A DNA stretch of 64,000 nucleotides from contig JAGCLR010000230.1 of the NCBI GenBank assembly GCA_017646885.1, forward strand, positions 1 through 64,000, read 5' to 3'. Each line of letters begins with the position of its first letter. Position 1 is the first letter of the stretch. Below the pieces are notes generated by a model that made no database searches, was not told where the DNA came from, and saw only the letters and a list, made by a program, of their open reading frames with translations. Below, piece by piece: positions 4,946 to 34,704 of this stretch. The stretch comes from Methanobrevibacter sp. (lineage in GTDB: Archaea; Methanobacteriota; Methanobacteria; Methanobacteriales; Methanobacteriaceae). The position numbers and the translations under genes were made by a program.

Positions 4946-5121
4946 ATAGTAATAATTTAAGAGACGCTGCTCAAGCTCTTCATGCTGTCGCTGATAGTTT
5001 AATGAAAGCAGCAGAAAGCATGGAAGCGCTTGAAAATCGTTGTAATTATTTTGAAAATGAAATCAATAGAGAAATTGATTTTAAGAAACAGTTAATAAGC
5101 CTCTTGGAAAATCGGCTATAA
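4942..5121 (+). CDS. small coiled-coil protein of unknown function (59 aa)
   Basis: The ATG overlaps the helicase TGA (ATGA), so the two genes are translationally coupled. The sequence is rich in Ala, Leu, Glu and Asn with heptad-like spacing (AAQALHAVADSLMKAAESM), which predicts a helical coiled coil and probably an oligomer. It has no Cys pairs, no signal peptide and no recognised family. Coupling to the helicase suggests a helicase accessory or loader-like role, but that is inference from position only. Confidence 0.7.
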   Translation: MNSNNLRDAAQALHAVADSLMKAAESMEALENRCNYFENEINREIDFKKQLISLLENRL

Positions 5122-5122
5122 G

Positions 5123-5151
5123 TTGACATTACTTAAAAAATATGTTATAAT
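5123..5151 (+). promoter_or_regulatory. consensus sigma-A promoter for DNA polymerase
   Basis: A perfect TTGACA, a 17-base spacer and a perfect TATAAT, with TATGT just upstream of the -10. It starts one or two bases after the stop of the small coiled-coil gene and drives the DnaE polymerase gene, and possibly the kinase. Confidence 0.93.
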
Positions 5152-5192
5152 ATAAATATAAATGGAAATTGAATGATGAAAGGAGTAGCCGA

Positions 5193-9739: not shown

Positions 9740-9817
9740 GGGCAAAACTGGATAATTATTTACTCACGAAACCCAAATATAGTGTATTCCCTTTGAGGAA
9801 TACACTATATTTAGATG
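9740..9817 (+). promoter_or_regulatory. nrdD leader: GGGCAAA element, perfect 16-bp inverted repeat, paired NrdR-box-like sites
   Basis: A perfect inverted repeat (AAATATAGTGTATTCC at 9775-9790, GGAATACACTATATTT at 9797-9812) with a 6-base loop lies just before the GGAGG site of nrdD. It lacks a T run, so it is a poor terminator. The two arms contain tATAGTGT and ACACTATA, the halves of the NrdR operator consensus. Scored as full 16-mers, 9770-9785 and 9802-9817 each match the consensus at 12 of 16 positions and lie 32 bases apart, the usual three-turn spacing. GGGCAAA at 9740-9746 recurs before three late genes. Operator and RNA-hairpin roles are not exclusive. Confidence 0.5.
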
Positions 9818-9829
9818 GAGGTTTATTAT

Positions 9830-12061
9830 ATGTATGTAATTAAAAGAGATGGAACACGAGTTTTATTTGATATTAACAAGATTGTAAATGCTATTAATAA
9901 AGCCATGATTCATGTTGATGGAAGCCTCTATGAGACCGACACCGCAGAAGAGATTGCGGTTATTATCGCCTCTGAGGGTAAGGATATGACTGTTGAGCAT
10001 ATCCAAGACCGTGTTGAAGAAGAATTAATGAAGAGCTCTCGCCCAGATGTAGCGAAAGCATATATTTTATATCGTGACCAGAGAACTAAGGAGCGTGACC
10101 GTCGTTCCAAGCTTATTCGCACTGTAATGCGTAGAACTGATGCTACTGCAGTTGAAAACGCAAATGCAAATGTTGATGAAAAGAGTTTCTCCGGTCGTGA
10201 GAAAGAAGCAAGTTCTGATATTCAAAAGATTATCGCTCTTGATTATACTCTTTCTCCAGAAGTAGCAAATGCTCATAGAAGCATGTTACTCTATCAGCAT
10301 GACATGGAAAAGACTAATATTGGTGAGCATAATTGTTTGTTTGTTGACTTTAAAAAGTTATTTACTGATGGATTTGTAACTAGAAATGGTGATATTCGTC
10401 CACCTTCCAGTTATTCCACTGCTTGTCAGCAATATGCTGTTATTTTCCAGTGCCAGTCTCAAGTTCAGTTCGGCGGAGTTGGAACTGTTCATTTGGACCG
10501 TGACCTTGCTCCTTTTGTTAAGAAGTCTTTCCGCAAGCATGTAAAGAATTATTTTACCGATGTTCAGTATTATAGTGATGAAACAGCCATCATGCTTATG
10601 GATGGTTTTGAAAAAGAGCATGGTGAAATTTGTATTGATAACCTTGAATTACAAAGCATGTCTGGCTATCCTGATGCTTATAACTATGCTATGAAACAGC
10701 TTGAGAGAGAGGGTAAGCAGTCTTCTGAGGCTCTTTATCATAACCTTAATACTCTTGAATCTCGTGCTGGTAGCCAAGTTCCTTTCACTTCTATTAACTT
10801 TGGTCGTGATACTTCTACCGAGGGCAAGCTTGTCCAGAAGTGGATGTTGAATGCTTCTCTTGCCGGTGTTGGTAAGCATCACTTGACTCCTATTTTCCCA
10901 ATCAGTATTTTCCAATATAAGAGTGGAGTAAACGCCGAGCCAGGTACTCCGGGCTATGCATTGAAGCAGCATGCCATTGAGTCTTTGAGTAAGCGCATTT
11001 ATCCTAACTTTGTAAACTGTGATTATTCTCAGGCTCATGAAGATCCAGAGAATCCAGATACTTTCTTCGCAACTATGGGTTGCCGCACTATGCTTGGCAT
11101 GGATATTCATGATAAGGAAAATCCTTATAATCGTGTCGGTAGAGGTAATCTTGTTCCTAATACTATGATTCTTCCCAAGCTTGGTATTGAATATGGTATC
11201 TGCCTTGGTAAGCGTGAAAAGGCTGATCTTGAAGGCTTCTGGAATGCTTTTGAAGATTTACTCAAACTTTGTGAGCAGGGTCTTTTGGAGCGTTATGATG
11301 TAATGGTTAACCAGTGCGCAGCAGCTGCTCCTTTCATGTATCAGAATGGCACTATGAAAGATGCTCAGTCTTGCCATGAGTCTGTCTACAATGCTCTTAA
11401 GCATGGCACTCTTGCTATGGGATATCTTGGCATCGCTGAGACTATGACCGCGCTCTTCGGTAAGAATCATGCGGAAGATGTCGAAGTACATCAATTTGCT
11501 TTGAAGATTGTTCAAAGAATTAATGAGTACGCAAAGGAAGCTACAAAGAGAAATGGTTTGAACTTCTCTTGCTATGCTACACCTGCCGAGGGTCTTTGCC
11601 ATAACGCTGCCAAAGCTTTGCGCGCTCAATATGGTGTAATTGAGAATGTTACTGATAAAGAGTTTATTACTAATAGCCACCATGTTCCTGTTTGGATGGA
11701 AGTGGGTATCTTTGATAAGTTAAAGATTGAAGCTCCATTCTGTAAGTATCCTACTGGTGGTTGTATTACTTATGTAGAACTTGATAGTACTTTTGTAAAG
11801 AATCAAAAAGCTATTGAGCAAATTATTGATTATGCTTTTAAGGAATTGGATATTCCTTACTTGGCATTTAACTTCCCTATTGACTCTTGCCTTGATTGTG
11901 GTTATCAGGCTGAATTTAATGACCATTGCCCCGAATGTGGTGGAACAAATATTCAGCAATTGCGCCGTGTCACCGGCTATTTGACTACTGACTATCGCAA
12001 CTTTAATAAGGGTAAGCAGTCTGAGGTTGAACACAGAGTAAAACATTCACTTTATACCTAA
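9830..12061 (+). CDS. nrdD: anaerobic ribonucleoside-triphosphate reductase (class III), NrdD
   Basis: Reduces ribonucleoside triphosphates to deoxy forms without oxygen, using a glycyl radical made by NrdG. 743 aa. ATG 9830 follows GGAGG; ATG 9815 overlaps that site and is rejected. The N-terminal ATP-cone begins YVIKRDGTRVLFDINKI. The C-terminal zinc site has CLDCGYQ and CPECGG, near residues 685-702. The glycyl-radical region RVTGYLTTDYRNFNKGK follows near residue 712. The gene has no in-frame TAG. It sits with nrdG, dut and a nucleotide kinase, so the phage carries its own dNTP supply set. It implies an anaerobic host. Control by the hairpin and NrdR-like boxes upstream is possible. Confidence 0.96.
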   Translation: MYVIKRDGTRVLFDINKIVNAINKAMIHVDGSLYETDTAEEIAVIIASEGKDMTVEHIQDRVEEELMKSSRPDVAKAYILYRDQRTKERDRRSKLIRTVMRRTDATAVENANANVDEKSFSGREKEASSDIQKIIALDYTLSPEVANAHRSMLLYQHDMEKTNIGEHNCLFVDFKKLFTDGFVTRNGDIRPPSSYSTACQQYAVIFQCQSQVQFGGVGTVHLDRDLAPFVKKSFRKHVKNYFTDVQYYSDETAIMLMDGFEKEHGEICIDNLELQSMSGYPDAYNYAMKQLEREGKQSSEALYHNLNTLESRAGSQVPFTSINFGRDTSTEGKLVQKWMLNASLAGVGKHHLTPIFPISIFQYKSGVNAEPGTPGYALKQHAIESLSKRIYPNFVNCDYSQAHEDPENPDTFFATMGCRTMLGMDIHDKENPYNRVGRGNLVPNTMILPKLGIEYGICLGKREKADLEGFWNAFEDLLKLCEQGLLERYDVMVNQCAAAAPFMYQNGTMKDAQSCHESVYNALKHGTLAMGYLGIAETMTALFGKNHAEDVEVHQFALKIVQRINEYAKEATKRNGLNFSCYATPAEGLCHNAAKALRAQYGVIENVTDKEFITNSHHVPVWMEVGIFDKLKIEAPFCKYPTGGCITYVELDSTFVKNQKAIEQIIDYAFKELDIPYLAFNFPIDSCLDCGYQAEFNDHCPECGGTNIQQLRRVTGYLTTDYRNFNKGKQSEVEHRVKHSLYT

Positions 12062-18589: not shown

Positions 18590-19300
18590 TTGTTATCTAT
18601 TGCGATATATAGTGATTAGATTGAAGATGTAGCCACATTAAAAACTTTAATTCAAGATTATTTAATTGAAAGTAAAACAATGGCTAAAATTTCTTGCTTC
18701 TCAACTCCAGAAGAAGTAATGATGATTCCAAATAGATATGATGTGTATTTTATGGATATGGATTCTACTAATGATGCGACTGTACTTGGAAAGAATAGAA
18801 GATTAATTGATGAAGGCAGTCAATTTGTTTATATGAGTATTAATCCAAATGTAGCTCATATTGCCGCAAAGGTACGCTCTGATTATTTTATTACTAAGCC
18901 TTTTGATAAAGAAGAGATTGCCGAAATACTAAATGAAATTAAAAAAGAGATTAAAGAAGATAGTATTATTATCAAGATTCCTTCTGGAGAGCGTCGTGTT
19001 AGAATTAATAATTTGAATTATATTAACATCGTAAGGCGATGTTTATGCTACCATTTAAAAGATGGAGCAATGTTTGATGGACAGACATTAAGAAGTTCTT
19101 TTGAAAAAGCTATTGACCCACTTCATAAACATAAATCTTTTATCTTTTTAGCTCCAAGTTTATTAATTAATTTAGGCGAAATTAAGATTATTAATAAAGA
19201 TAATATTGTTTTTGAAAATGATGATGTATTGTATTTTCCAATGAAACAATATGATAATTTAAGAAATGCTTGGATTAATTACAATAGGATTATTGATTAA
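18590..19300 (+). CDS. LytTR-family response regulator, 236 aa, one in-frame TAG
   Basis: DNA-binding transcription regulator. TTG 18590 is chosen because AAAGGAGGG lies six bases upstream; ATG 18680 would delete the first strand of the receiver fold. The receiver domain (1-115) has YSD9, YFMD56MD as phospho-acceptor region and ITK103PF, the conserved Lys. The second half (about 123-236), starting SIIIKIPSGERRVRINNLNYI, matches the LytTR DNA-binding domain. The TAG at codon 10 gives SDQIED in the acidic pocket region. It is isolated between a divergent promoter region and a bidirectional terminator. No sensor kinase is seen. It could rewire host two-component signalling or time the late operon. 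Confidence 0.85.
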
Positions 19301-19306
19301 AAACAA

Positions 19307-19345
19307 AAAAAAGGAGACTCTTTAAAAGAGTCTCCTTTTTTTATT
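19307..19345. terminator. bidirectional terminator between LytTR gene and the tail operon
   Basis: Stem AAGGAGACTCTT / AAGAGTCTCCTT with a three-base loop, flanked by an A8 run on the left and T7 on the right, so it works in both directions for convergent genes. The last tail gene ends inside its right flank. Confidence 0.92.
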
Positions 19346-20342
19346 TAACTTTAATCCAAATACGTCCATTGACTGCAATATTACCAGTACCCCAAAATTC
19401 ATATTCAGGAATTTCAGATACAACTCCAATAATTCTATCTGGATATTCTTTAATTTCTTCGCGGGTCATTTTACATACTTTTCCTTCTGGGCCGGCGCAA
19501 ACTGTATCTCCGGCATGATAATCATTTCTATCTCCTTCGCAATAAGCAAGAACACGTCCAGCAACTGCTAATGGAGTTTTACATTCATCAGTTTCGCCAA
19601 TGGCAAATCCAAATGTATCTGAAACGATACCATCACAAGCCTAAAACTTTTCTACAGTTTTATAAATTTGTCCATTATCTTTTGAAGCTACACAATAACC
19701 AGGCTCTATATCTTCAAGCTAATTTCTGTATTCAGCATAGTCATTCCATACAGCTCCATAAAGTATAGAAGCTTTAATTGATTTTGTGCTAGGATTCATA
19801 GTAATACCAGTACAAAAACGAGTTGAATTAGTTGTTGTTGCTGTTGCGGCAGTATAACAACTTAATATTGGATAATTCGTATTTGCGGTAGTAATTGTCT
19901 AACTAACTGAGTTTGAACTATAATCTGCCCATCTCCAATAAGTACCATCATAAGTTAAAATAATCACTGAATTAACAGGAACGTGAGTGGTAAGATTACC
20001 ATCATTTCTTTTAATTGCTATAGCGCCTAAATTGTTAATGTTTAAAGTGGTTCCACCACTAACTCCAGCTACTGCAACTTTATAGGCAATTGTTAATCCA
20101 GTAAAATAAGAGGTAATGGATGGGTTAGTTCCTAACCATGTTCCAGCTGTAGTAGATGAACTTCCATCTACATAATAAACATTACTCTAAATTCCATTAT
20201 CATCATAAGTTAAATATATGGCATTTGCGTCTAAAGAATGGGAACCAACTGAACCACCTTGAACAAGAGTTCGATAGGCATTATTGGTTAAATTATATAT
20301 TTTTAGTGGGCTTACTGAAGTAGAAGTAACATTAAAAGCCAT
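19341..20342 (-). CDS. tail fibre protein with DYAEY-type C-terminal domain, 333 aa, four in-frame TAG
   Basis: Last gene of the long leftward tail block. ATG 20342 follows GGAAAGGGAGAG. Residues 1-190 are Asn/Thr/Ser/Gly-rich beta repeats typical of fibres (LNINNLGAIAIKRNDGN). The C-terminal 130 residues contain WNDYAEYRN, GYCVASKDNGQIYKT, GFAIGETDEC and VAGRVLAYCEGDRNDYHAGD, resembling the autocleaving chaperone domains of phage fibres and spikes (Peptidase_G2-like DYAEY start). TAGs at 20187, 19899, 19719 and 19641 are Gln. Placement right after the modification island suggests it may be a client. No conventional frame above 65 codons exists here on this strand. Confidence 0.72.
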
Positions 20343-20372
20343 ATCATATCTCTCCCTTTCCTTTTAAAATGT

Positions 20373-21362
20373 TTATGAATATAATATTCCGCCTATAGAT
20401 TTACTATAACGTCCTCCAGCATTATTACAATAAAAACAAGGCATACTTTCATCATAAATTCCATTAATTATTTTTGATTTAAATTGATTACTTTTTTCAG
20501 ACATTAAAATTTCTTCTAAAGTATTTTTATTTAAATCTCCAAGTATAAAAGATTGTTGCTATTCGCTATCATTACGAATATTACAGCAAGGACTAACAGT
20601 TCCATCGTAATTTATACCAATAAATCTAAATGGTTCAAAACAGGGGTCAGTTCTTTCTGTTAAAGAATATTCTTTTAAATTCCCTCCACGGTCAGATATA
20701 GTACCAGTTTTTGGCCAATCCCAATAATAAAGAATTGTTTTATCTTTTAATTGTCCAACAAAATAATTTTCATACTATATAATATTTTCGATTTCCCATT
20801 CAATCATTTTAGAATAACACCATTCTGCTCCACGACAATCGTAGTCCATAATAGATAATTCATCAATGAGACAATTATGTATTTTTTCTTTATTTAAGTA
20901 ATCTCCATTTGTATTGGTTACTAATTTAGCATAGGGAAAAAACTCTCTAATGATAGATAAACTATTCTGTAATATATCGAAATGCGAAAATGGTTCATTA
21001 TATCTTGAGAAAGAAAAAACGCCAGAATATTCATATTTCTATAATTCTTTGAGTAAATCTCTTAATGTATTTTGATTTAAACTTTTATTAAAACTATATC
21101 TATCAAGAAGTGCGCCATTTGGACACCAAGCACATTTTCTATTACAAAATGAAAATAATTCAATTTCAACAATTTTCAAATTTTCAATAATTTGTTTAAT
21201 TGTTTTTTCTTGTTCATATAAAACTCGTCCACAAGTGTGAGAGCAATATTCAACTCTAGGACATACTGAACAGCAAATAATTGAATCGCAACCTCTTAAA
21301 TCTTTTTTTGTATTACAAGCAGGAATTTCTAAACTTCTAAAATTACAATTTTTAGCTAACAT
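20373..21362 (-). CDS. radical SAM/SPASM enzyme with Cys-rich N-terminus, 329 aa, three in-frame TAG
   Basis: Probably modifies a peptide or other substrate by radical chemistry. The radical-SAM motif is FCNRKCAWCPN (Cys 73, 77, 80). A SPASM-type C-terminal region has DPCFEPFRFIGINYDGTVSPCC and, near the end, CFYCNNAGG, ligands for auxiliary Fe-S clusters (quoted in part). Unusually, nine Cys fall in residues 6-44 (including CCSVC and CSHTC), ahead of the radical-SAM motif. It starts at ATG 21362 with GAGGAG, overlapping the ParB-like gene by 11 bases. TAGs at 21039, 20775 and 20559 are Gln. It parallels the N-terminal half of the fusion gene at 24773-26470, which suggests that this enzyme and the ParB-like protein upstream form a pair. 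Confidence 0.8.
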
Positions 21363-22200
21363 ACTTCTCCCACTCCTCTTTAATATTAAAACAATCACAA
21401 TTTAAACCTTCTGGCAGCTTATGATATAATTGATAATATCTAGTTAAAGGAGGTTCTAAAACATTCTAAAAAGCTGTTAAAATTCTAAAGGCAGTATTAT
21501 AATCATCCACTTCTAAAATTGTTATACCATCTTCTAAAAATTCTTTTGGTTGCGTATAATACATTTTCATTTCTTGTTCTGTAAAAGATAAGTGAAATAA
21601 TGAAACTGGTTTCTATAATTTAAAAGAGGTTAATTTATTTTTAACTCTATAGTCAATCGGAGTGTATTTAAAACCAGTGCAAGATTTTTCACAAAACAAT
21701 GGAATCTAAATAATTAAAACTTCTTCAATACTGTTTAAATGCTATAAAATATCAATTCTATGATTTCCATTATAGGCATTATATTTTTGAAGTGATTCCA
21801 AATAATTCATTTCTTCCAAAGAACAAATTTGATTATGTAAAATACCCTATGGTAATACAAATAAAGGAAAATACATTCCATGCTTTTCAATACTTTCTTT
21901 AGTTATAATAAATTCTTCTTCAGTGGTCCAATCCCAAATTTTTCCTTTTGTCGCGTAAAGCAATTCATTTGGATGAACCCATTTATGAGGAAAATCATTC
22001 TTTAATATTTTTATATTTTCTTTAAAAAGTGAATATAAATAAATAATTTTATCTATGTTAAAAGTGTCAGTTTTTTTATCCCATAAAAAATAAGGTTCAT
22101 CGCTAGTTAATAAAGCCTTGCCATAAGATAATGGTTTACCACTTTCTAAATCTTTCATTCGATTTGTAAAATCACAATTATTAGATTCACATGCAATCAT
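21352..22200 (-). CDS. ParB/sulfiredoxin-fold protein, 282 aa, five in-frame TAG
   Basis: Has the GxxR-type nucleotide-binding motif of the ParB/Srx superfamily: NAYNGNHRIDILQHL near residue 143, preceded by SIEKHGMYFPLFVLP, which matches the strand-turn that opens the ParB fold. Members bind or hydrolyse nucleotides (ParB CTPase, SbnI serine kinase), so kinase or nucleotidyl activity is possible. The rest is not recognised. TAG at 21847 falls between these two motif segments. It overlaps the radical-SAM gene by 11 bases and the PP-loop-like gene by 14 bases. A partition role is unlikely: no ParA and no helix-turn-helix are visible. Confidence 0.6.
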
Positions 22201-22837
22201 AAATATAGTCCTCCACTATAGGCTTTAAATTATTATTCAAATAATTTAAAAATTCATTTGTATTTAAATCCTTTTCATAGAAAGGATTTTTTTTAATAGA
22301 GCATTTAATATAATTATTTTTATCTTTTGTATTAAAAGGGACGTCTTTTAACAAAGATCTTACTTTATTAGAATCAATAATATTAATAAGAGGTCTTTCA
22401 AAAATTAATCCAAGAGAAGAAAATAACTATTCAAAATACTTTAAAACAAAAGTATTTTGATTTACTTTGATTTGTTTATCGTGCCAATTTCTTTCACCTG
22501 TTAAAATTTTTGCTTTATACTATAGAGCTAATTGCACTCGCAATAAATGACAATATAAATGGCAAGCAACACAAGGAGAAATAAAAGCTTGTTCCATTAA
22601 TAAACTCCAAAGATTTTCATTATTTTCTAAAACAATTAAATCTTTAATTAAAAAACCTTTTTTTCTCAATTGCTATATAAATAATGTATAATTATTTTTT
22701 ACTAATTCAACATTATCTTTTAATTCAACAGGAGTAATTACTTGTGTAGGAATAATAATATCTTCTGGATAATTTTCTAAATGAGTAATAATTGCTGCTA
22801 AACTATCATCACCTGCTAATTCTGCAATAATAAACAT
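22187..22837 (-). CDS. PP-loop ATPase-like protein, 216 aa, three in-frame TAG
   Basis: Resembles the adenine-nucleotide alpha-hydrolase (PP-loop) superfamily, which adenylates substrates for amide, thiol or nitrile formation. The N-terminus AELAGDDSLAAI is a variant of the SGGxDS P-loop. SPCVACHLYCHLLRVQLA followed by ILTGERNWHDKQIKVNQ resembles an uncharacterised PP-loop branch with a CxxCH and a GERxxHD segment. The P-loop departs from consensus at its first residues, so activity is uncertain. ATG 22837 follows AAAGAGG. TAGs at 22673, 22520 and 22427 are Gln. It sits between ParB-like genes in the island. QueC-type deazaguanine synthesis is an alternative, but no other preQ0 genes are seen. 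Confidence 0.5.
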
Positions 22838-22855
22838 AAAACACCTCTTTCTTTC

Positions 22856-23563
22856 TTATTTTTTTGTAATATATTCTGAAGGGAAAATATTGTTTTTATA
22901 AAGTTGTTCCATATTTTTTGCTATATGATAACTAGCTTCCTTATGGAATAATTTAAAAAGGAGCCAAAGATCAGCGGTATTATTACTAAAAACATTAACC
23001 CAATTATTATCTAAAATTTCATATTGTAAATTTAAAAGATAACCAGCTTTATCAAATAAAATTTTTGGTATAATAATATTACCTTTTTTATCATTTGTAA
23101 AGTTTTCACTTGGTTTTATAATAAATAAAAACTTTTCTTTATTTAAAATATTCTCTTCAAATAAAGATTTAATAGCGCGCAAAGAATGTTTTGTATGAAT
23201 ACATTCAATTGCCGTAATACATTCATCTTCATCAAAAAACATTAAAATAGGTAAATATGAGCCTACATTTGAAATAATTTGTTTTAAGGTATCTTCTGGT
23301 AAAAAAGATGTATCATATGTAACTATTTTTTTATTATCTGAATGATAATTTAAAAAAAAATCTTTCCCACAATATCCAATTTCACAATATCCATTCTCAG
23401 ACAATAATTTAATATCTAAAATAAAATAATTAATTAATTGAATTATATCGGATAAAGAGGTGTAGTTTAAAATAGATTCATAATTCTATTTACCCTCTTT
23501 ATCTCGATATAATGATTTTTTCTATTTTAAATATTTTTTTTGAACATCAGTAAAATTTAACAT
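22856..23563 (-). CDS. degenerate ParB-like paralogue, 235 aa, two in-frame TAG
   Basis: Starts at ATG 23563, overlapping the upstream gene by seven bases. The region LPILMFFDEDECITAIECI then HTKHSLRAI near residue 122 aligns with the GRHR segment of the neighbours, but the Arg-His-Arg is replaced by Thr-Lys-His-Ser. The C-terminus NTADLWLLFKLFHKEA and NIFPSEYI is clearly related to the ends of the proteins at 23947-24741 and 24773-26470. It is thus a paralogue that may have lost catalysis or act as a partner subunit. TAGs lie near 23524 and 23488. Confidence 0.55.
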
Positions 23564-23943
23564 TTTTGAAAACAATAAGCGGCAGGGGACAGATAATTAA
23601 TAATTTGTAATTCATTTAAATCTTCAATTACAAATTCTGCTGTTGTTAGAGAATAATCCATTTCCAAAATATATCCTCCAATAAGCCACTAACCATTATC
23701 AATTTGTTTAATTTCAAAAGGAACTAAGGTATGCTATTCTAAAGTGCATACTTTATTAAAATATTTAAAAATTAAAGAAAAATCTTTATTTCGACTATGT
23801 ACATAATGATTAAAATAAAAGCAAGTTTTTAAATATCCATTAAAGAAATCTTGAAAATCTTTAAATTCAATATTTGAAACTCGCATTTGATTAACTTTAT
23901 TTGAATGTTTTTGTGGAACATTAGTAGAAAAATGAACAATCAT
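23557..23943 (-). CDS. unknown island protein, 128 aa, two in-frame TAG
   Basis: ATG 23943 follows AAGGAG, four bases after the stop of the gene upstream. There is no recognised motif. The sequence is aromatic-rich (FNGYLKTCFYFNHYVHSRNKD) with QWLIGGYILEMDYSLTTAEF in the middle, a beta hairpin-like segment, and ends YCFQKC. TAG at 23734 and one near 23689 are Gln. It may be a small partner or substrate-binding subunit of the island enzymes; that is inferred only from tight coupling. Confidence 0.55.
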
Positions 23944-23946
23944 TAT

Positions 23947-24741
23947 TTATTTCTCCTTCCAGGTAATATTATTTGGGGGGTAAATATTTAATTTTAACAA
24001 ATCATCTTTATAAAAATCTAATAAATAACTAATTTCTTTATCTACTGCTTTTAAACATAGCCATAAATCCACGGCTGTGTTTATCTAAATTCTTGAAAAA
24101 TAATCATCAGTTTTTATTATTTTTTTATTTAATTTTTTTAAAGATGTATTTAATAAAATATTAGGTATAGTTATTTCACATAAAATATTATCATGTTCTA
24201 AATTATCCCAATAGATACATAGGAAAACATAAGGAATATCTTTTGTTACTTTTTTTAATAGCTAAGAACGATGTCTACCCCCGCAAATAAAAAGTTTGTT
24301 TTTTTCTCTATTTTTATAAGCGTAAAAAGGAATATAAATTTTTTCCTTTTTTACAGATTGTAAAAGCGAATTTTCTGAAAAAGTAAAACCAGAAAAACTA
24401 ACTTCTTTACCATAAGCATCGAAAATCTAATTTTTCTATAAATTAAAATCTAAATACTCATAGCCAAATATATCTCTAATTATTAAAACATTTTCATAAT
24501 AATGTTTAAATAATTGTATTAAAAAGAAATTATTATGAATTAAATCGGTATCATTTAAGATAGAAAATCTATAAACTTCATTTTCAATTCTAATTCGAGG
24601 CGCCCCATACATAATGTCTGCCATAACATTTAACTAATTTTCATTCCAAGAGAAAGGAAATTTTTTAGGCGCTTTTCTTTTTATTTTTTCTTGTTTACTT
24701 TTTAGAATTATTTTAAAATCTTCTCTAGTATATTTTCCCAT
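23947..24741 (-). CDS. ParB/sulfiredoxin-fold protein, 264 aa, five in-frame TAG
   Basis: The motif LFICGGRHRSQLLKKV near residue 155 is a clear ParB/Srx GxRHR segment, preceded by IYIPFYAYKNRE. The Gln in RSQLL is a TAG. The C-terminus NTAVDLWLCLKAVDKEISY then IYPPNNI matches the ends of two neighbours, defining an island-specific C-terminal module (TAVDLW...KE...IxP). The N-terminus is Lys-rich. ATG 24741 lies 31 bases after the stop of the fusion gene, without an ideal ribosome site. No plasmid-partition genes accompany it, so a nucleotide-dependent enzymatic role is more likely. Confidence 0.6.
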
Positions 24742-24772
24742 AAATTTATTATAACAAATTTTTTGTTTTAAG

Positions 24773-26470
24773 TCAATTTTGATTGAGTTCAATATTAAAA
24801 TATTTACTAGGAGTTATGCCATCTTCCATGACATTATTAAAATAATATTCAATTAAAAAATCAACTTCTTTTTCAAGAATTTTCATCAATATCCAAATGT
24901 CAACAGCATTAGATACTTGAATTAGATAATAATTTTCATTCAATTCTTTAATATTTAAATTTAAATCTTTTAAAATATTATCATATAAATCTTTAGGAAA
25001 ATAAATCCAATCTTCAAAATTTGGGTCATATGAATCTAAATAATAGCAAATCGTTTTAATAGGAATTTCCATATTATTTTTTTTCATATGTTCAAGTGCC
25101 GCAAGCCTATGACGTCCTGCTACGATTGTTGCGCAACCTAAATTTTTCTCTTTATATGCTAAATAAGGCTAATAAAAACCTCTATTACAAAGAAATTCAT
25201 TTATTAAAGAGTCTTTCGTGAAAGAAAATTTTGAAAAACTAATTCCTCCACGGTCATCCACAATATTAGCTTTTGGACCATCAATATAAAAATATTCATA
25301 AAAATTAGCTAAAATCTCCCAATTTTTAGTATAATAATAATATAAGTCTTTAGCTTTTTGAGAATCATACCATAGATCGTTAATATTATAATAAGAATTT
25401 GGATATAATTTACCATTAATAAATACTTCTCTTAAATAGTATTTTTTACTTTGTTCCCAAACTCTTAATTGATTTTCACTCCAAGTTTTTCTGTTTCTTA
25501 AATAAATATGAGAATCGCTTAATTCTTCTTCTTTATTAAGTTTCTTTTCTTCATATTTTTCAGCATTTCTTTGAATAATTCTAGGAAATTCTTCCCCATC
25601 TTTAAATTCAAAATTTATTTTTCTTTTTTTATGACAATTTTTACAAGGAGAAAAATAATTTTCATAATTAGAATGAGTCATTATCTTTCTAAAATTAGAA
25701 GCTTTTTCTCCATAAAAAATATCGCTTAAAGTACTTTCATAAACATTACCTAAAATATATTCTTTATGATTATCATTATCAGCTCTTAAATGACAACATG
25801 GCATTACATAGCCATCATGAGTGATATTGATATAGTAAGAAGCTTCTGGACACGGATAATCTCTTATTCCACAATTATTGACCCAAGATAAATCTTCAGA
25901 TAATTTAGAAGGTTCTAAAGAGCCTCCTCGATTTTCAAGGGATCTATTCTTAGGCCAGTCAACGGTAACCTAAATTAAATTAATATTCTTATGAATAGCA
26001 GATAATATATATCCACTATCATTAATTAAAATACATTTATTTTCTTTAAGTTTCTTCTTCCAATATTCTTTTCCTTGACAATCATAATCCATAACATTTA
26101 AAATGGATAAATTTAAATCTTGAAGATTTTCTTCACTAAATAAATCTCCATTACTATTTGTTAAAATAACAACATTTCTATCAACAAAGATATCTTTAAT
26201 AATTTTAATATATTTTTTTAACTCATCAACCTACATTAAAGGCTCTTGATATCCTAAAAAACTCATAATGGCGCCAGTTTTAAAGGCGCCATTATAATAA
26301 TATTTTGTACTAAAATTATTATCATATAATTCTTGAATAATATTTTTAAATACATTTAAATCTAAAAAATTTTCTTTGCTTCTAGAAATAAAAGAATTCG
26401 GACACCATTCGCAAGAACGGTTACATAAAGAATGAAATTCAAAATCAATTCTTTGAATATTTGAAAACAT
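24773..26470 (-). CDS. radical SAM-SPASM-ParB-like fusion enzyme, 565 aa, three in-frame TAG
   Basis: A single frame from ATG 26470 (AAAGGAGT upstream) to TGA 24773. Radical-SAM motif LCNRSCEWCPN (Cys 16, 20, 23). SPASM-like region with CPEASYYINITHDGYVMPCC and SPCKNCHKK, near residues 205-270. A long charged linker follows, then a ParB-like domain with IVAGRHRLAALEHM near residue 453 and the island C-terminal module SNAVDIWILMKILEKE, ending IELNQN. The TAG at 25169 joins the radical-SAM half to the ParB-like half; read as stop it would separate them. Because the linkage depends on this one codon, and all other evidence makes TAG Gln, I treat it as a true fusion. It links the two enzyme classes functionally. 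Confidence 0.78.
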
Positions 26471-26484
26471 TTAATCTACTCCTT

Positions 26485-27516
26485 TTACTCTTGTTTTATC
26501 CATTCATTAAATAATTTTTCATCATTAATAACTTTTGATGGTTTAATATTAGGATACTTATACAAAAGGTCTCTTAAAAATAATGGATAAATATATAAAA
26601 ATTTATAAGCATCATATATTGTATCTTTTTGAGTCTCTACAGTATATTCATTTATAAATTTTTCATTATTAAATTCTACAGATTCTTTTATCTTATTGCG
26701 ATAAAATTCATCTGTAACATTTTTTGATGTCCAAACGGGATCAATATTATAACGTCCAATTACTGGAGTCGTTAAAACGCCCTGTAATGTTTTTACTGAA
26801 GCGGAAAACATTACAGGGGTCATAATTACACATAAAATTTTATAATCTTCTGGAACAATTCCATAGGCTTGACCAATTTTTAAACTGGCAATTCTATGAT
26901 TTCCTTCTCTAACTGTATAAGTTTCACAATCTCCATTAGTAACAACTTGAATGGGATAGTAAGTGCCGTTTTCCATAATTGATTTGGCCAATTTGGTTTT
27001 ATCACTTGCACTATCTAAAAGATAAGGGTCTTTAAAATAAGTATCCCAATTCTTTGACATAACATCCTCTCTTAAAACCAATTGATCAAGAGGCACAAAC
27101 TCATACTAGAAAAATTTATCTTTATGAGCTAATACATTTTTAAGATTACAATTAATATAGTCTTGCTCATACATCTCTTTAACCTATTCTTCTGTGTAAG
27201 GTCTTTGTGGGTCCATATTACTCCACAAATAACGAGAAGAAGAAACAAATGATTTTTTATAAGAATATGAAACTTTTAATTTTCTTTTATTTACATCAAT
27301 ATAAAACAAATTAATAAAATCTGGTTCATATAATTTATCATATTCTTCAAAATCAAAAAATTCTAAATCAATTTCATCTTCAATATTATTAACGGTCTTA
27401 AAAAAAGCTAAACTAGAATTTTTATCAAATCCATCTAATTCATATATTTTTTCTAAAGAAATAATACTACCAGTTTTTGTTGAAAAATAAGCTAAATATT
27501 TATTTTTAATATCCAT
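26485..27516 (-). CDS. ParB/sulfiredoxin-fold protein with extra N-terminal domain, 343 aa, two in-frame TAG
   Basis: First gene of the island; ATG 27516 lies one base after the stop of the fibre gene upstream, so it is coupled to it. Residues 1-130 form an acidic unknown domain (EDEIDLEFFDFEEYDK). The ParB/Srx core follows: LAKSIMENGTYYPIQVV then YTVREGNHRIASLK near residue 205. The last third has FRDL- and Tyr-rich helices. TAGs at 27184 and 27106 are Gln; the first joins the acidic domain to the ParB core. Direct coupling to a fibre gene is the best hint that the island acts on tail parts. Confidence 0.62.
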
Positions 27517-27517
27517 A

Positions 27518-28441
27518 TTAACGTCTCCATCCATTAGATGTATAATACCACAATTCAGTCCAATAAGCTCCAGAAGTACTTGGACCTCCAGAAAATAGAT
27601 TTGCACTTCTTATCGTTCCAGTAGCTTTAGCAGGACTGCCTGAACCATCATCATTGCCACTGTTATCTTCACCCATCATATGAGGCAAAGACATCGTATA
27701 TGTTAATCTAAAATATCCATCTAAATCAGCAACAGTTTTTGAAACAGTTGCAGTAACATTACCACTAGCACCATGAGCTACAGATTTCGAGCTGGATACA
27801 ATAGAAGTTACAGTTCCAGCGGTATCAACAAACTCTAACTTATAAGTAAACGTAGCATTATAATCATTTGTTGTTTGAGGGTCATTTAATAAATAGTAAA
27901 TATTGTAACTAACACTTAAAGATGTACCATTTTTAGTTCCATTACAAGTAAAATTGGTAACACCACTCATTGTTCTAGCATAAGTAACATAGGCAATGTC
28001 TTCTGTAAAAGCGACAGAAAAATTTGTATTAGGAGTAAATACACTATAATTACCACTTGTTGGAGCAGTAGTTGCAGTTTTCACCCAAATATCTCCAGCA
28101 CTCATTCCAGAAGTTGGAGCTGATGCCTGATAAAACATTTTTGGTCCAGTTCCAGTCAATTTTGAGCCTTTAGCATAAGCAGTATAACCTCTTTGAATTA
28201 AAGCTGCTGTAGCAGTAGCATCGCTAGTGTAAGTACCTGTTACACCAGCGATAACTACGTTCTATTTAATATTAGCAGGAGCAGGATTCAAAGTTCCAGT
28301 AACCTTACTCCCTTTAACATAAGCTGTTTTTCCACTTTGAATTTGATCGGCCGTAGCAGTAGCATCTTGGGTATCAAAAGTGGTTGTAGCAAATGATGTA
28401 ATAACTCCTTCTATGGGAGTTGAACCTAAATATACCGCCAT
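27518..28441 (-). CDS. tail fibre protein with repeated GKTAY..GSKVTGT modules, 307 aa, one in-frame TAG
   Basis: ATG 28441 directly abuts the stop of the next fibre gene. Two copies of a 40-residue module (ADQIQSGKTAYVKGSKVTGT and ALIQRGYTAYAKGSKLTGT) open the protein, a pattern common in phage fibres. The rest is Ser/Thr/Asn-rich beta sequence, ending ELWYYTSNGWRR. The only TAG is at 28262-28264 between the two modules. Likely a host-binding fibre. It immediately precedes the radical-SAM/ParB island. Confidence 0.72.
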
Positions 28442-29872
28442 TTATTCACCTACTTTATAAATTATTGCGCCGCCGCCACCAAACAATTCAACAGCTTTTT
28501 TAACTGCTGCTGGAGTACAAGCTCCACCAGAGTCAGAAGTATAACTTGTACAAGAAGCAGCTGGATATAAAATTACGTGACCATAGTTATTAGCGTCGCC
28601 GACTCCATAAGTGGTTGCGGTTGAGGCGTGATTTGGTAATCTTGCTGCGGCTAAAGTACCTGTGGAAATGTTACTAGCATTTAAAGATGTTAATCCCGCT
28701 CCACTACCAGAGAATTTTGTCGCAGCAATATTTCCGTCTGGATCGAATCTAATTTGAGCTGTTGTAGTATTTGCGTTGGTGTTATAATTACTGTCTAAAA
28801 TATAGGTAAAATATAATTTATTATCATTATAAACTCCTAATGCCCAATCGCCAGCAGTGGTTTTCATTGATAAAATAGCATCATATCCAGAATAAGATGT
28901 TGTTTTAATCATGGCAGAATTTCTACCTTGATACCAAGATTGTGAAATGCCTGCACGAACAATATTAACATTAGAATTATTTAAAGTAATATCTCCTGTC
29001 ATTGTTCCGCCACTTCTAGCAAGATAATCTGTAGCTGTTTGCGTAGCCATTGTTCCAAAAGCACCAAGCTTACAATAAGCTAAATTAGAGCTTGTTCCAG
29101 CATAAGCACCATTCCAATAAGCTAAAGTATTATGATTAATTAACTATCGTTTTGCTGTTCCACTAACCCAGCCAGAAGGTCCTACAGCAGTATTATCTAT
29201 TACATTATCAAAGGTTGGAATTTCAACCCAAGATTTCCAAGTTCCATTTTCTCTTCTACGATAGTAGATTTCATTACATCTAAAATCTGTAGCAATTTGC
29301 TAAACCCAAGAAGAAGAGTAAGCAGTGGTTAAAATCCTATAGTCTTTATTTGTTGTATTTCCAACAAAACTTGGCCTATTAGTGGCCGTTGTAGTCATAT
29401 AATGGAAGCCTTGCTCTGTTGCGTCATTTGCGTCATCATAACCAGATGTGGAGTAATTTTGTATTCTACGAGGTAAAGCAGCATTTGGAACGCTAGCAAC
29501 TGTTGTAGCAATACTCCAACCATTAGAACCATTTCCACCGGCAACAGAACCAGTTACATCGCCTGTTAAAGCTATGGTTTTTGCTGAAGCAAAGCCAGTA
29601 GCAGTTGTAGCATTACCGCTTAAAGCTCCATAAAAAGTTGAAGCATAAATGTTAGATAAAGTATTACCTGCGCCTTTACAAAATCTATAGTTCTCTATAT
29701 TTCCGTCTGAACCACTTGCCGTTCTATAATTTACATATATATCTCCACTAAATTTAGGAGAAGCAAAGTTAAATTCATTAGAATGAGCTAATAAATCATG
29801 GTCTGAATTTGCTTTAATAGCTCCTCCAAAATAAGACTTTCCTAATACGAGTAAATCATTTAATTGTGCCAT
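28442..29872 (-). CDS. tail fibre protein, 476 aa, two in-frame TAG
   Basis: ATG 29872 follows GGAGAGGTG. Beta-repeat fibre sequence: FYGALSGNATTATGFASAKT and ARSGGTMTGDITLNNSNVN are typical of phage side fibres, with ATKFSGSGAGLTSLNASNI as a collar-like repeat. A middle segment (NEIYYRRRENGTWKSWVEI) resembles the linker found before chaperone domains. TAGs at 29300 and near 29146 are Gln and join three segments into one protein. The C-terminus GGGGAIIYKVGE ends with TAA touching the next start. Confidence 0.75.
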
Positions 29873-29886
29873 TTTTCACCTCTCCT

Positions 29887-32409
29887 TTATATCTCTTGAA
29901 ATAGCGTGCCAGAGACAAACTATTCTTTCATTATATTAAATTTTGAATTTTTTGGTAAAGTATCTACTCTTACCCATAATTCAATTTCTTGCATTCCTTT
30001 TGTTCCATCGTATCCAGGAACACCATTGGGGTTTCCCCATTTGGTTTTTGCTCCAATAGCATAAAACCAATTGCCATGTCCAACAGAGCCAGACAAATAG
30101 GTATCTACTAAGACAGAAGCATCACTGCTTTGACGAGTTAAACCTCCCCAAAAATATGACGTCCAATCAATATGAATTGCCTAATAGCCTGCGGCAAAGG
30201 CTGAGCCATCTCCAATCGCTACAAATTCATTTTGAGGGGCATTTGTTTGTTTCCATCTGTTGTATTTACCAGGATCGTCTGTTGGATAAGTTAACATAAA
30301 TTCATACTTACCATCAGAGCCTTTTAAAAATGGAAGAAATTTTAAACGACTATATTTATATTCTGAAGTAGTATATAATACCTCATCAATGCTTGTGAAC
30401 AATGTTGCACCAGTATTTGTTTTATGATAAAACACTCTAGCCCAGGCACTGCCGTCAGAGAGAGTGGTAAATTTCATATCTGATAATTGACTTCGTTCAC
30501 TAAAATCTTCTGCCATAAAAACACCAGTTTTTTTCATTTTAGTTAAATGATTTAATTGTTCTTTAAATTCATAAACAATTAAACCGCCTTCTTTAGTTAC
30601 AGAACCTGCTGTTTCATAGAGAGTTTTAATATCCTCCGCAGATAAAGCAGTACAATAAATTCTTACATCTGAAACATTGCCAGTGAATTTATGTTCATGG
30701 GTTGAACCATTATGACGACCACTAATTAATAATTCATTCGCAGGCGTGTGAGTCCAATAATTATTACTGCCGTAAGTACCTCCTTGAGCAGTCCATTCAA
30801 CACCATTTAAGTAAAATGTATAAGTTGAACCTTTTTTAACTACAACCATATGATTCCATTTAGTGGTATCCCATTTATCTTTAAGTCCTGTAGCAGTTCT
30901 AGTGGTATTGTTGCCATCTCCACAGCTTAAAATTGAGTTATTACCATAAAAACTTAATGCAATATTTGTAGATTTATCCGCTAAAATGATTGAATTTGCT
31001 GTTGGATAAGAATTTACTTTGACCCAAGCTGAAATAGTAGCATTTGTTCCGTCCATAGAATGAGTAGCTGTAATATAATTAGAACCAGAAAAAATAGAAC
31101 TCATACTATATCTTGGAGTATCAGTATCAAGGTTAAAAGTTCCTGAAGCAGTTCCATTATTATTATAGCCAGAACAATCATCAGCAGGAGAAAAATGCAT
31201 TTCACTCATTGAGCGACTATAGCCAGTTTCTTTAGATCCTTTTTCAAGTTTTAAATTTGCCGCTTTTAAAATTGCGGTAGAACCTTCAGTAGAAGAACCA
31301 TTATTATCGATTCTAATATATCCTGTTCTATCATCTGCTTTTGTGGTAAAAGTCCAAGTATAATGATACCAACCATTTCTTAAAGTTGGAGTATGGCTTT
31401 TACTTGTAACATTAACATAGCCACTCCCTGTCTTCTGAGTGGCATCTGTGTCAGAAAGCCAAAAGACATCAATACTTTTTACCAAATTATTGGCATATAA
31501 GTCACAAGAAAAAGTGTATTGAGTAGATTTAGAAACAACAGGTGTTCTTGAAGAATATAAATAAGTTTCTCCTGTCGCAGTAGTTGAACTTTGAAATACA
31601 TTTAATCCCAAAATATCATCATATACAACACTACCATAGTTACTATTGACAGAGCCTGTTTTATCTAAAGGATTAGATGTATTAGTTAATAAATTATTAG
31701 CTCCACCGCAATCTAATTTATAATGAGCTACTAATCCTTGACTTAGTAGTTTAACTTCTTTTTTAGATAAACAATGGTCATAAACACGAACATCATTTAT
31801 TCTACATAAGGGTCTATAAGAACCATTTGCAGAATGCCCAGTAGACCAATCAAATATATTAAATTTATTTGGCTAAGCAACATTATCACAAGTAAATTCT
31901 TTTTCACAAACACCATCAACATATAATCTATATGTTTTAGAAGCTTTTTTAAATGTTAAACACAAATGATGCCAAGCTCCATAAATATTTGTTGTTCCAT
32001 AATAATCTCGATAAGTTCTTCCAGAACTAGTCGCTGTATTACAACTCATATAGCATTTAGTGGCATCGGCATCATCATATCTTAAAGTAATTCCTGCTCC
32101 ACTACCTTTATTACTATTATAAGAGTGGTCATGATTTGTTAAAATTCCATTGGCTGAAGTTTGTGCTCCAGGAGTAGTAGGATAGCACCAACATGCCATG
32201 GTAAAATCCCCGTCTAAATTAACAGTTGAACTACTAGTTATATGAGAAACAGTATTAACAGTAGTTCTTTGATAACAATTCGCATTGGTTTTTCCTCCAG
32301 AGGAGGCGGCAGCAACACCGCCTCCAGTGGTTACTAAACTAAATGTTATTGGGAGAGAACCATAATTATTTAAATTGCCATGTAAAGGCAACCATATTAA
32401 TAAACCCAT
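29887..32409 (-). CDS. tail fibre/adhesin with two LamG-like lectin domains, 840 aa, three in-frame TAG
   Basis: ATG 32409 follows AAAGGAG. A first concanavalin/LamG domain spans about residues 10-215 (GDFTMACWCYPTT, GAWHHLCLTFKKASKTYRLY, INDVRVYDHCLSKKEVKLL). A carbohydrate-binding-like region follows (YTFSCDLYANNLVKSIDVF), then a second LamG domain near 420-590 (NATISAWVKVNSYPTANSII, WNHMVVVKKGSTYTFYLNG, VSDVRIYCTALSAEDIKTLY). The C-terminal part is unique. TAGs at 31873, 30181 and 29920 are Gln. The first falls inside LamG domain 1, so standard reading would destroy it. Expected to bind host surface glycans. Confidence 0.82.
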
Positions 32410-32424
32410 TAGTTTTCTCCTTTC

Positions 32425-34704
32425 TTAAATAAATATAAAATCTAAACTTTCTGTTGAATCAATATATTCTAATTTAACTTTATCAGCCAAAGAAATTGCT
32501 TTTTCAACTCTTAATAAACCCTCTAGAGTCTAATAAGTAAAATTAGCATTATAAGCTGGTCTGCCAGTTTTATTATTATCATAAGAAAACCAAACGTATC
32601 TTTTAGTAGATGTACTACTTGCAGCATCAGTACTTGCTAAATCAGTTAAAGCAGATGCTGTTGTAGCATTTCCATTTAATGCTCCTACAAATGTAGTAGA
32701 AGTAATACTAGTAAAACCTGTCATAGTTTTTGGTATTACTAAAGAGACATTTGCGCTACCATTAACAGAAGTTCCAGTGGTTCCAGCTGTACTTGAAATA
32801 CTCACAGTGCGAGCAGTACCCCAATTGGCAGTTGTAATATTTGAAGAACCATCAAAACTAGTTCCATTAATTGTTCTTGCGGTTTTTAATTTAGTTGCTG
32901 TGGCAGCATCACCGCTAATACTAATACCCCAAGTGCCAGTTGCGCCAGTACCATCTTTCTTAACTGTATAAGTAGTATAGTTTCCAGAGTGTAAAATTGG
33001 TTGATTCCAGAATTTTAATACTGTTCTACCAATCACTAAACCTTTCTAATGATCCCATCTATCTCCAATATCATACTAAGGATTAATAAAAATATAACCA
33101 CTTGTAACTTGATTGGTATTTGGATTCGTATATTCGTCAGGAGTATTATGACCTCCAATAAATTGCTATACAGTTGAACCATCAGCTTTATAGATTAAAG
33201 CAATATCTTTATAATTAGAAGTATCTCTATCATAGGCAAATGATACTTTAATTGCTTGATTTGCTGTAGTAGCAGAAGTTGCATTACCAGTTAAAGCACC
33301 AACGAATTCACTTGAGGTAATTTTTGTAAATCCACTTAATGTAGTAGGAATAGTTAAAGTTGCATTCGCAGAACCATTGATAGAAGTACCAGTAGTTCCA
33401 GCAGTTCCAGAAATACTAATAGTACGAGCAGTACCCCATCTTGCTGTGGTAATATCTGCCGTGCCATCAAAATTAGTTCCATTAATTGCTCGTGTATTAG
33501 CCAATTTTGCTGCAGTGCCTGCCGCGATAGTAGATTGATTAACCCAACCTGGTGCTCCACCAGTACTAGCTAAAATCTAACCATTAGTTCCTGCTGCGGT
33601 AGGAGTATAAATACTTGCAGTGGAACCTGCTTTAGAAGTGCCGTTTAAAGTAACTGCAGTACCTCCTGAGTAAGCAGTACAAGCAACAGCTTTTCCATTT
33701 GCGGCAATATAAACTGGTTGAGTGTCAGAGCCGACAGCAGTCGCTTCATTTGGACTCCAAATGGCATAACAAGCATCATTAGCTTCATCTCCTGCGGGTA
33801 AATAAAAAGTGGATTGATTAAAAGCTGGAGTCTGTCTAGCTCTTAATCTAGTGTAATTGGCATTTTGACCATATATAAGAATACATCCATATTTATTTTT
33901 CGCAACTCCAGAAGCAGTTGAATTACCAAGATATAAATTACTCTATCCTAGCGCACTCGCTGTACCTTCTACAGTATTATATCTTAATCCATCATTATAA
34001 CTAATTCTATTACTATTATTTATATAAAAAGGAATATTATAAGTTGCCGCTGAAGTTGGGTTTTGAGCAGAAGTAGCAGAAATTGTAACATTTCCAGAAT
34101 AAGCTGGGAATGTTGCTGTAACATTACTAGTTGAGGCAGTGTTACTTTTTAAAGTTACGGAGCCTGTTTTTTCGCTAAATAATTTAATTGCGCCATATTT
34201 ATTTCCGGCAGTTCCAGTAGCTGTAGCATTTCCTAAATCTAAAACTGCGTAACCAGCTGCACTTGCTGTGCCCTAAAGCATGCGAATATTAAAATCTTGA
34301 TTTGCTCTACGAGAATATTCTGTAGTAGCATTTGCCGCAGAACCGCCAGTGTTAATAAACAATGGACTATAGCTAGTTTCTGAAGCAGGCTCTGTTTCAG
34401 TAACTCCTAAAATATTGCCTTTGTGTACGCCTATAAAAGTATCGGCAGTAACATTTCCATCAACTACGCCACCATTATTTCTGAAATATTTTTCATGGAT
34501 TGGAAGTTTAGTAGAATTCTATCCAGATGGAAAGGTAAATTCTTCGAGATCATACTGAGCATGACTTGCATTTAATTGCATTCTTTTTGAACTACTTACA
34601 TCTACGAAAAAATTACCTTTGTCTTCAGTAAAATAAGCATATCCTTCTGTTTTTGTTGCAGGAAGATTACTTTCGTTACCTTTTAAAATTTTAAAAAGTG
34701 CCAT
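32425..34704 (-). CDS. long tail fibre with duplicated shaft module, 759 aa, eight in-frame TAG
   Basis: ATG 34704 follows AAAGGAG. The N-terminal 60 residues (ILKGNESNLPATKTEGYAYF) are a fibre-attachment-like domain shared in style with the gene at 45577. The shaft contains a pair of near-identical 70-residue modules (RAINGTNFDGTADITTARWG and RTINGTSFDGSSNITTANWG starts, each running to FVGAL.GNATTA). TAGs at 34519, 34273, 33943, 33577, 33166, 33074, 33046 and 32530 (some within a codon) are Gln. The C-terminus ends DSTESLDFIFI. Likely one of several host-recognition fibres. Confidence 0.78.
32640..33500 (-). repeat. imperfect tandem duplication within the fibre gene
   Basis: Two related segments (roughly 32640-32890 and 33290-33500) encode the same shaft module, with TAGTTGTS.NGSAN and GFT.ITS..FVGAL.GNAT shared. 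Synonymous differences are frequent, so it is an old duplication rather than a recent copy. It could extend the fibre or allow recombination with other fibre genes. Confidence 0.65.

Follow-up and report, generated by a model that had tools for sequence, protein, structure and literature searches.

An island of ParB-like, radical-SAM and PP-loop genes among tail-fibre-like genes of a TAG-recoded phage: a possible small-molecule biosynthesis cassette

What would a phage gain from radical S-adenosylmethionine (SAM) enzymes, several ParB-like proteins and a PP-loop protein encoded side by side within a run of tail-fibre-like genes? We investigated an island of eight genes (P8 to P1) at 20373-27516 on the minus strand of a 64,000-nucleotide stretch deposited as Methanobrevibacter sp. 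(GenBank assembly GCA_017646885.1, contig JAGCLR010000230.1, positions 1 to 64,000; hereafter the window). We consider it quite possible, and prefer this reading, that the island is a phage small-molecule biosynthesis cassette whose product is placed on a receptor-binding protein or on the host surface. The eight open reading frames (ORFs) follow one another with little overlap or space between them, and are open only when TAG is read as glutamine (genetic code table 15). As an earlier, sequence-only reading of the window had stated, TAG occurs inside every gene (two to five in frame per gene, 25 in total, with no internal TAA or TGA), a code that conceals the island genes from standard annotation; ORFs of at least 150 amino acids cover 51% of the window with table 11 vs. 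92% with table 15. The genes, in the order of transcription, are:

26485-27516, minus strand: P8 (ParB1), ParB/sulfiredoxin-like, 343 amino acids, G-N-H-R at 205, first gene of the island
24773-26470, minus strand: P7, a BtrN-type twitch radical-SAM domain (residues ~1-285) fused to a ParB-like domain (~320-565, G-R-H-R at 452)
23947-24741, minus strand: P6, a stand-alone paralogue of the fused ParB-like domain, G-R-H-R at 155
23557-23943, minus strand: P5, 128 amino acids
22856-23563, minus strand: P4, a ParB-like paralogue without G-x-H-R
22187-22837, minus strand: P3, a PP-loop (ATP-pyrophosphatase) protein with a YcfA-like fold, 216 amino acids, AGDDS at 8, C89-x2-C92
21352-22200, minus strand: P2 (ParB2), ParB-like, G-N-H-R at 145
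20373-21362, minus strand: P1 (rSAM_B), a second BtrN-type twitch radical-SAM enzyme with ~60 additional cysteine-rich N-terminal residues

The ATG of P8 (27516) lies one base past the end of the preceding gene's stop (27518), again as first read. The starts preferred for P1, P4 and P6 are 21362, 23563 and 24741, respectively; P6 has 264 amino acids from its ATG, and its open frame extends to a TTG at 24792.

Both P7 and P1 carry the CX3CX2C SAM-cluster motif within a radical-SAM barrel, and both match the SPASM family of Pfam at the C-terminus (E = 2.7e-11 and 2.9e-14), which confirms the two radical-SAM/SPASM enzymes of the sequence-only reading except for the exact type of the C-terminal domain. 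There, cysteines C207, C225, C276 and C279 of P7 and C241, C259, C309 and C312 of P1 align with those of BtrN in profile alignments, and because they match the one auxiliary cluster of BtrN, the C-termini fit a "twitch" with a single predicted cluster rather than a full SPASM domain. BtrN, the 2-deoxy-scyllo-inosamine dehydrogenase of butirosin biosynthesis, is a twitch radical-SAM enzyme that oxidizes an aminocyclitol. It is by far the closest solved relative of P7 in a structure search with the model of the fusion protein, and the P1 family profile matches it with E = 2.7e-27. The likeness is one of sequence and model, and the island differs from the BtrN setting in lying in a phage, in having two such genes, one of them fused to ParB, and in standing outside any antibiotic cluster. 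P1 is 32-40% identical to the rSAM_B proteins of five other loci. Its first ~60 residues (about 21362-21180) hold eight cysteines (at 6, 16, 25, 30, 31, 34, 40 and 44); this extension, which is missing from the five other aligned rSAM_B proteins, perhaps forms a further metal site.

P8, P6, P2 and the C-terminal half of P7 are mutually related (hhalign: ParB1-ParB2 97%, ParB1-fused 97%, ParB2-fused 95%), and G-x-H-R is present in all four and missing in P4. P4 matches the fused type at 99% and ParB1 and ParB2 directly at 7% and 6%; since these direct matches are weak, it belongs to the group by way of the fused type (NeuB and PP-loop, used as controls in eight comparisons, stayed <1%). Compared with classical ParB, the fused/P6 type reached 72% (P = 3e-5), the ParB1 family 14% (P = 0.002), ParB2 6% and P4 1%, vs. 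0.4-2.3% for unrelated families. ParB entries of PHROG were matched by P8 (E = 2e-5 over 41 residues) and P7 (E = 0.0032), and among 11 ParB1 proteins four match phrog_1033 and four phrog_723, both named ParB-like. Pfam returned no ParB match for the ParB-like proteins, and neither a helix-turn-helix (HTH) match nor one to the C-terminal dimer domain of canonical ParB in P2, P4, P6, P7 or P8. Among the matches that the fold libraries listed for the fusion model there is no chain with a ParB fold; the radical-SAM half fills these lists, which makes this result uninformative. The four ParB/sulfiredoxin-like domains and the degenerate paralogue named earlier stand as related to one another, with only a remote tie to classical ParB: the likeness to the ParB/sulfiredoxin/SerK-SbnI fold consists of G-x-H-R and the core around it in remote profile matches of some members, and the island differs from ParB-CTPases in its lack of HTH and ParB matches in Pfam, its four or five copies and its radical-SAM fusion. 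Sequence identity is 25-35% between P8 and ten ParB1 rows from other loci, 35% between P4 and its positional counterpart in locus L010, and 30% between P2 and the protein adjoining the PP-loop gene of locus L007.

The predicted model of P3 bears out the PP-loop assignment, and AGDDS at residue 8 agrees with the nucleotide loop [SA]-G-x-D-S; the protein also has conserved cysteines. The closest fold is that of YcfA, the PP-loop enzyme of 6-thioguanine biosynthesis in Erwinia amylovora (12% identity), followed by ThiI, MnmA/TrmU and QueC. YcfA and its NUDIX partner YcfB were reported to be necessary and sufficient for 6-thioguanine (PMC7994395; sources given by PMC number were available in part, and our statements refer to the available parts). 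The eight island proteins, which alone were scanned, gave no NUDIX match at E <= 0.1; one relative of the cassette, L002, has a NUDIX gene nearby and no PP-loop gene there. The cellular relatives of P3 (15 Clostridia loci, L034-L048) differ from the YcfA system in pairing with a phosphoglycerate-mutase-like gene, which adjoins the YcfA-like gene in 14 of the 15 (by Pfam in one). Genes that by eye resemble LarE, LarB and LarC lie next to this pair in three Clostridia loci. An alignment of the PP-loop pair retrieved no relatives in viral contigs.

Conserved synteny in other phages, which the sequence-only reading had named as support for a joint system, was found. Single-sequence searches of viral contigs with the fusion or ParB1 returned no relatives, and alignments did find them: 14 fusion homologues (12 of fusion length) and 13 ParB1 homologues, the window's own included. 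For six of the 12 other ParB1 homologues, the longest contig is exactly as long as that of a fusion homologue. Fusion-family scans gave six viral loci and one Clostridia-assembly locus; the ParB1 alignment gave ten viral contigs, and a wider one returned the same ten. ParB1 is identical in L001/L002 and in L004/L006, that of L005 is 93% like L001 and that of L003 74% like L004, so the ten loci amount to about eight lineages. Genes were labelled with hidden Markov models in 12 sources (the window, L001-L007, L009, L010, L016 and L017), among which P5 has no relative; nor does P5 match any family above any cut-off. A radical-SAM-family gene follows ParB1 on the same strand in all ten loci (in L017 behind a second ParB1), and the families recur together beside tail-like genes. 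NeuA and NeuB occur together in seven of the ten (L001/L002, L003, L004/L006, L005, L007, L009 and L016), and the piece of L017 that was read contains a short NeuB-like gene. L007 carries, on one strand after Baseplate_J and fibre-like genes, ParB1, two radical-SAM genes, ParB2, PP-loop, rSAM_B, NeuA and NeuB. L010 shares the order of the window, except that its radical-SAM gene is unfused, P5 is missing and a further, weak ParB-like gene is present; the locus is cut off after the PP-loop gene. Upstream of its cassette, after a collagen-repeat gene, L010 also encodes an 899-amino-acid protein (4041-6740) with glycosyltransferase and methyltransferase matches that are all below cut-off.

Scanning with rSAM_B yielded 113 relatives; the best 80 were retained, and 78 new loci were labelled (L049-L126). 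NeuA was present at E < 1e-50 in 16 of the 78; seven of these are further pieces of contigs already counted, and nine are new contigs (L049, L050, L051 and L053, near-identical; L062 and L063, near-identical; L052, L054 and L056). L052 has ParB1, rSAM_A, rSAM_B and NeuA, L049 and L054 have a ParB-like gene, rSAM_B, NeuA and NeuB, and the order in L062 is ParB-like, small gene, NeuA, rSAM_B, NeuB. Because the ParB gene holds two in-frame TAG codons in L049, L050, L051 and L053 and coding coverage is higher when TAG is read (0.80 vs. 0.64 in L049), these contigs probably represent another cassette-bearing lineage that has recoded TAG. Among 198 Clostridia-order genomes, rSAM_B was matched at E <= 1e-20 only in the genome of L007 (three matches, all within its cluster).

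Three phage NeuBs of 273-292 amino acids (L002 13771-14649, L007 15645-16499 and L049 12088-12909) were scanned; their matches end at 274-280 of the 329 positions of the N-acetylneuraminate synthase model, and all score below the cut-offs of named synthases. The C-terminal domain, which we take to be antifreeze-like, seems to be missing, and the substrate may be different. Three phage NeuAs have a weak PseF match, below cut-off. The HAD-like label used below rests on weak Pfam matches (E = 0.003-0.13) and, for L007, on the match of the C-terminus of NeuA to a PDB capsule biosynthesis protein (E = 1.4e-6).

Because the relatives carry NeuA and NeuB, the comparison points more to sugar-like than to peptide chemistry, and the SPASM peptide-maturase reading offered at the outset gives way to BtrN-type enzymes. 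In the cassette that we propose, the two BtrN-type enzymes would oxidize a hydroxyl-bearing ring or sugar-like substrate by means of SAM-derived radicals and a single auxiliary Fe-S cluster, those ParB-like proteins that have G-x-H-R may bind a nucleotide and serve as kinases of small molecules or as transferases that depend on a nucleotide, and the YcfA-like enzyme would adenylate a carbonyl for the installation of sulfur or nitrogen. The product would then be put onto a receptor-binding protein or the host surface; this target is a guess, as are the step order and the substrate. NeuB in the relatives would add a three-carbon unit, the HAD-like domain would remove a phosphate and NeuA would activate with cytidine triphosphate, a route that would end in a sialic-type acid activated with cytidine monophosphate (CMP). 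The removal of a phosphate fits a phosphorylated NeuB substrate and thereby hints at a kinase role for the ParB fold, itself a guess. With no NeuA or NeuB within 64 kb, the window version would need a host-made precursor or a different finish. Decoration of the virion fits the place of the island among fibre-like genes. On the doubtful side, though still conceivable, is the fuller proposal of an undescribed, tail-linked system in several phage lineages. In it, ParB-fold proteins would serve as small-molecule kinases or CMP-linked transferases instead of DNA clamps and, together with BtrN-type oxidases and a PP-loop enzyme that forms a thio or amido group, would yield a novel, activated acid of sugar-like type for receptor-binding proteins. 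If phages do make an unusual sugar-like compound of their own by radical chemistry beside host-range genes, phage-host recognition would gain a further layer and the ParB fold an enzymatic function in phages; the linkage of ParB, radical-SAM, NeuA and NeuB in relatives is a testable prediction of the substrate class.

Several results weigh against a sugar-like cassette. Neither NeuA nor NeuB was found in the window (E <= 1e-3) or in L010, itself cut off, so that the sugar link for the window's own form rests on relatives; family scans recognized no glycosyltransferase in the island, and no recognized sugar genes lie alongside the cellular PP-loop relatives. Strong NeuA and a ParB-like partner at E <= 1e-4 are both absent from 62 of the 78 rSAM_B-family loci (table 11, many short pieces), and since these show no ParB-like partner, rSAM_B-like enzymes also exist outside this setting. 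The first radical-SAM-family gene of L016 (10684-11505) has a SPASM domain without CX3CX2C and is perhaps a dead partner or scaffold; the second, next to it, has both. The matches of the P2 and P4 families to classical ParB scarcely stand out from the controls, ParB1 profiles matched no PDB chain, and the structure search left the ParB-like half of the fusion uncovered. One of the 11 ParB1 proteins matches phrog_3321, a rhodanese-related sulfurtransferase, with the best value of the table (E = 2.2e-13). Behind BtrN, the structure list continues with peptide maturases (ChlB, anSME, sactisynthase) as well as sugar enzymes (DesII, SpeY), and function is reported to be hard to predict from sequence in this subfamily (PMC6231123).

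The maturases in that list speak for another reading, in which the enzymes modify side chains of the neighbouring fibre-like proteins directly, in the manner of maturases of ribosomally synthesized and post-translationally modified peptides, with no free sugar intermediate. A substrate for it could be sought in a small family, beta-rich by eye, which is a candidate target of the cassette:

L001 7724-8266: small beta-rich protein
L003 1930-2439: small beta-rich protein
L004 1588-2094: small beta-rich protein
L005 516-1058: small beta-rich protein
L010 7374-8000: small beta-rich protein
L009 14524-15792: protein of the same family

In five of the six (L001, L003, L004, L005 and L010) the family member immediately precedes ParB1, and phmmer E-values between groups are 1e-4 to 1e-10; Pfam gave no match for the two members scanned, and the window gene at 27518-28441 has no significant match to the upstream proteins of other loci. 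Direct peptide modification is nonetheless rather unlikely, given that the nearest solved relative acts on a small molecule, that no NCBIfam maturase model exceeded its cut-off among the island proteins, and that it leaves NeuA and NeuB in most relatives unexplained. Products of NeuA and NeuB usually end in surface glycans, which would suit a cassette that acts, in the course of infection, on the host surface and not on the virion, so as to exclude superinfection or mask receptors. Glycosyltransferases of the pelagimyophage tail-fibre island have been interpreted likewise (PMC7029224). We regard this as unlikely, for no transferase or exporter was recognized in the window's island, and the island lies within the fibre-like run before another such gene and a terminator-like hairpin, a position that suggests late expression. 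That suggestion is qualified by a promoter-like site near consensus (TTGACT, 17, TATAAT) at 24776-24748 on the minus strand, at the end of P7 and six bases before the ATG of P6, which could start a separate leaderless transcript; promoter-like sites in the region are overall near chance (115 found vs. 108 expected).

DNA phosphorothioate systems include the ParB-like DndB and PP-loop proteins, and a nucleotide or nucleic-acid modification system would accord with the nearness of P3 to YcfA, which is involved in the synthesis of a thio-purine, and then to the ThiI, MnmA/TrmU and QueC folds, as well as with viperin-like, nucleotide-acting radical-SAM enzymes in the structure list; we consider such a system quite improbable. 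It is very improbable that the ParB-like genes serve as regulators or decoys, that the radical-SAM genes were grafted on as unrelated metabolism and that the grouping has no joint function: ParB folds are often DNA clamps, and 17 of 28 tested ParB-fold proteins bound no nucleotide (PMC12704722), but the fusion of the two domains exists and the gene set recurs in several phage lineages.

Phage radical-SAM modules and glycan-gene islands beside fibres are already known (PMC2853527, PMC7029224). The host-recognition cluster of pelagimyophages is a hypervariable island in which tail fibres occur with glycosyltransferases and radical-SAM cassettes; the available part of its description (PMC7029224) mentions no ParB-like gene, PP-loop gene or fusion, whereas the window island has no recognized glycosyltransferase. 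Campylobacter phages CP220 and CPt10 have 11 and 12 radical-SAM genes, of which five belong to an exchangeable phage module, and according to the available part of the source each cluster has a putative glycine amidinotransferase instead of ParB-like and PP-loop genes (PMC2853527). No Campylobacter phage was among the matches listed for six cassette protein queries against named phages. The main text of a 2025 survey of the ParB-CTPase fold nowhere uses the word "radical" (PMC12704722). As the sequence-only reading supposed, we recognized no description of the set of ParB-like, BtrN-type and PP-loop genes or of the fusion in the literature searched, mostly without subscription journals or preprints. 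A tblastn search of 50,697 named phage records gave no hit to the window fusion, the L002 ParB1, the L002 NeuA or the L049 rSAM_B, and a DNA search with 19300-28500 gave no match. The L002 NeuB matched three named records: the marine virus AG-345-L05, in which NeuB is accompanied by a weak cytidylyltransferase match (E = 6.5e-6), LR756508 and a Moritella record; no ParB-like or island-type radical-SAM gene occurs in the pieces read of the first two. A weak radical-SAM match in MT835743 (L008) was dropped, this being by eye a bacterial contig with ATPase genes.

The island is richer in AT than its surroundings, as had been noticed by eye: its G+C content is 24.2%, vs. 33.8% in the remaining window and 35.2% in 27518-34704, and the minimum among 427 equal-length stretches outside it is 27.3%. 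We rejected low G+C as a sign of acquisition, and recent separate acquisition, which the sequence-only reading had inferred, is not supported. Because third-position G+C in the island genes (0.11-0.17) is close to that of five neighbouring fibre-like genes (0.14-0.18), amino-acid composition probably accounts for most of the difference; the use of internal TAG in all eight genes argues for long residence in recoded phages. A search for an empty site found no match to any window fibre-like gene in the pieces read of phAss-1 (30 kb of 136) and MT835469 (about 100 kb of 176).

The island is bordered on the minus strand by:

27518-28441, minus strand: fibre-like gene directly upstream, 307 amino acids, PHROG matches of unknown function, a possible target
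19341-20342, minus strand: fibre-like gene directly downstream, 333 amino acids, PHROG matches of unknown function
19306-19342, minus strand: terminator-like hairpin at the end of the downstream gene, 17 pairs then a T-run; symmetric, hence also called on the plus strand

Neither flanking gene has a Pfam match, and the earlier fibre calls remain mostly by eye, strengthened by the match of 29887-32409 to a virion structural PHROG (E = 3.9e-48). Terminator-like sites number 13 in 19.3 kb vs. 6.8 expected. The window's replication genes are like those of phAss-1 (DNA polymerase 38.8% identical), and its only structural genes that match the pieces of phAss-1 and MT835469 are 54314-57367 and 57373-60360. 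A crAss-like assignment was dropped, the DNA polymerase matching phAss-1 and SPbeta-type phages at about 38%. The authors of phAss-1, a code-15 gut phage, suggested an Eubacteriales (Clostridia) host (PMC10607447). Convergent with the fibre-like run, 18590-19300 (plus strand) has a weak response-regulator match (Pfam E = 0.011). This gene presumably resembles a LytTR-type regulator. On the same strand, 9815-12061 encodes the anaerobic ribonucleotide reductase NrdD (PHROG E = 2.7e-190), which fits an anaerobic host, a setting that suits radical-SAM enzymes.

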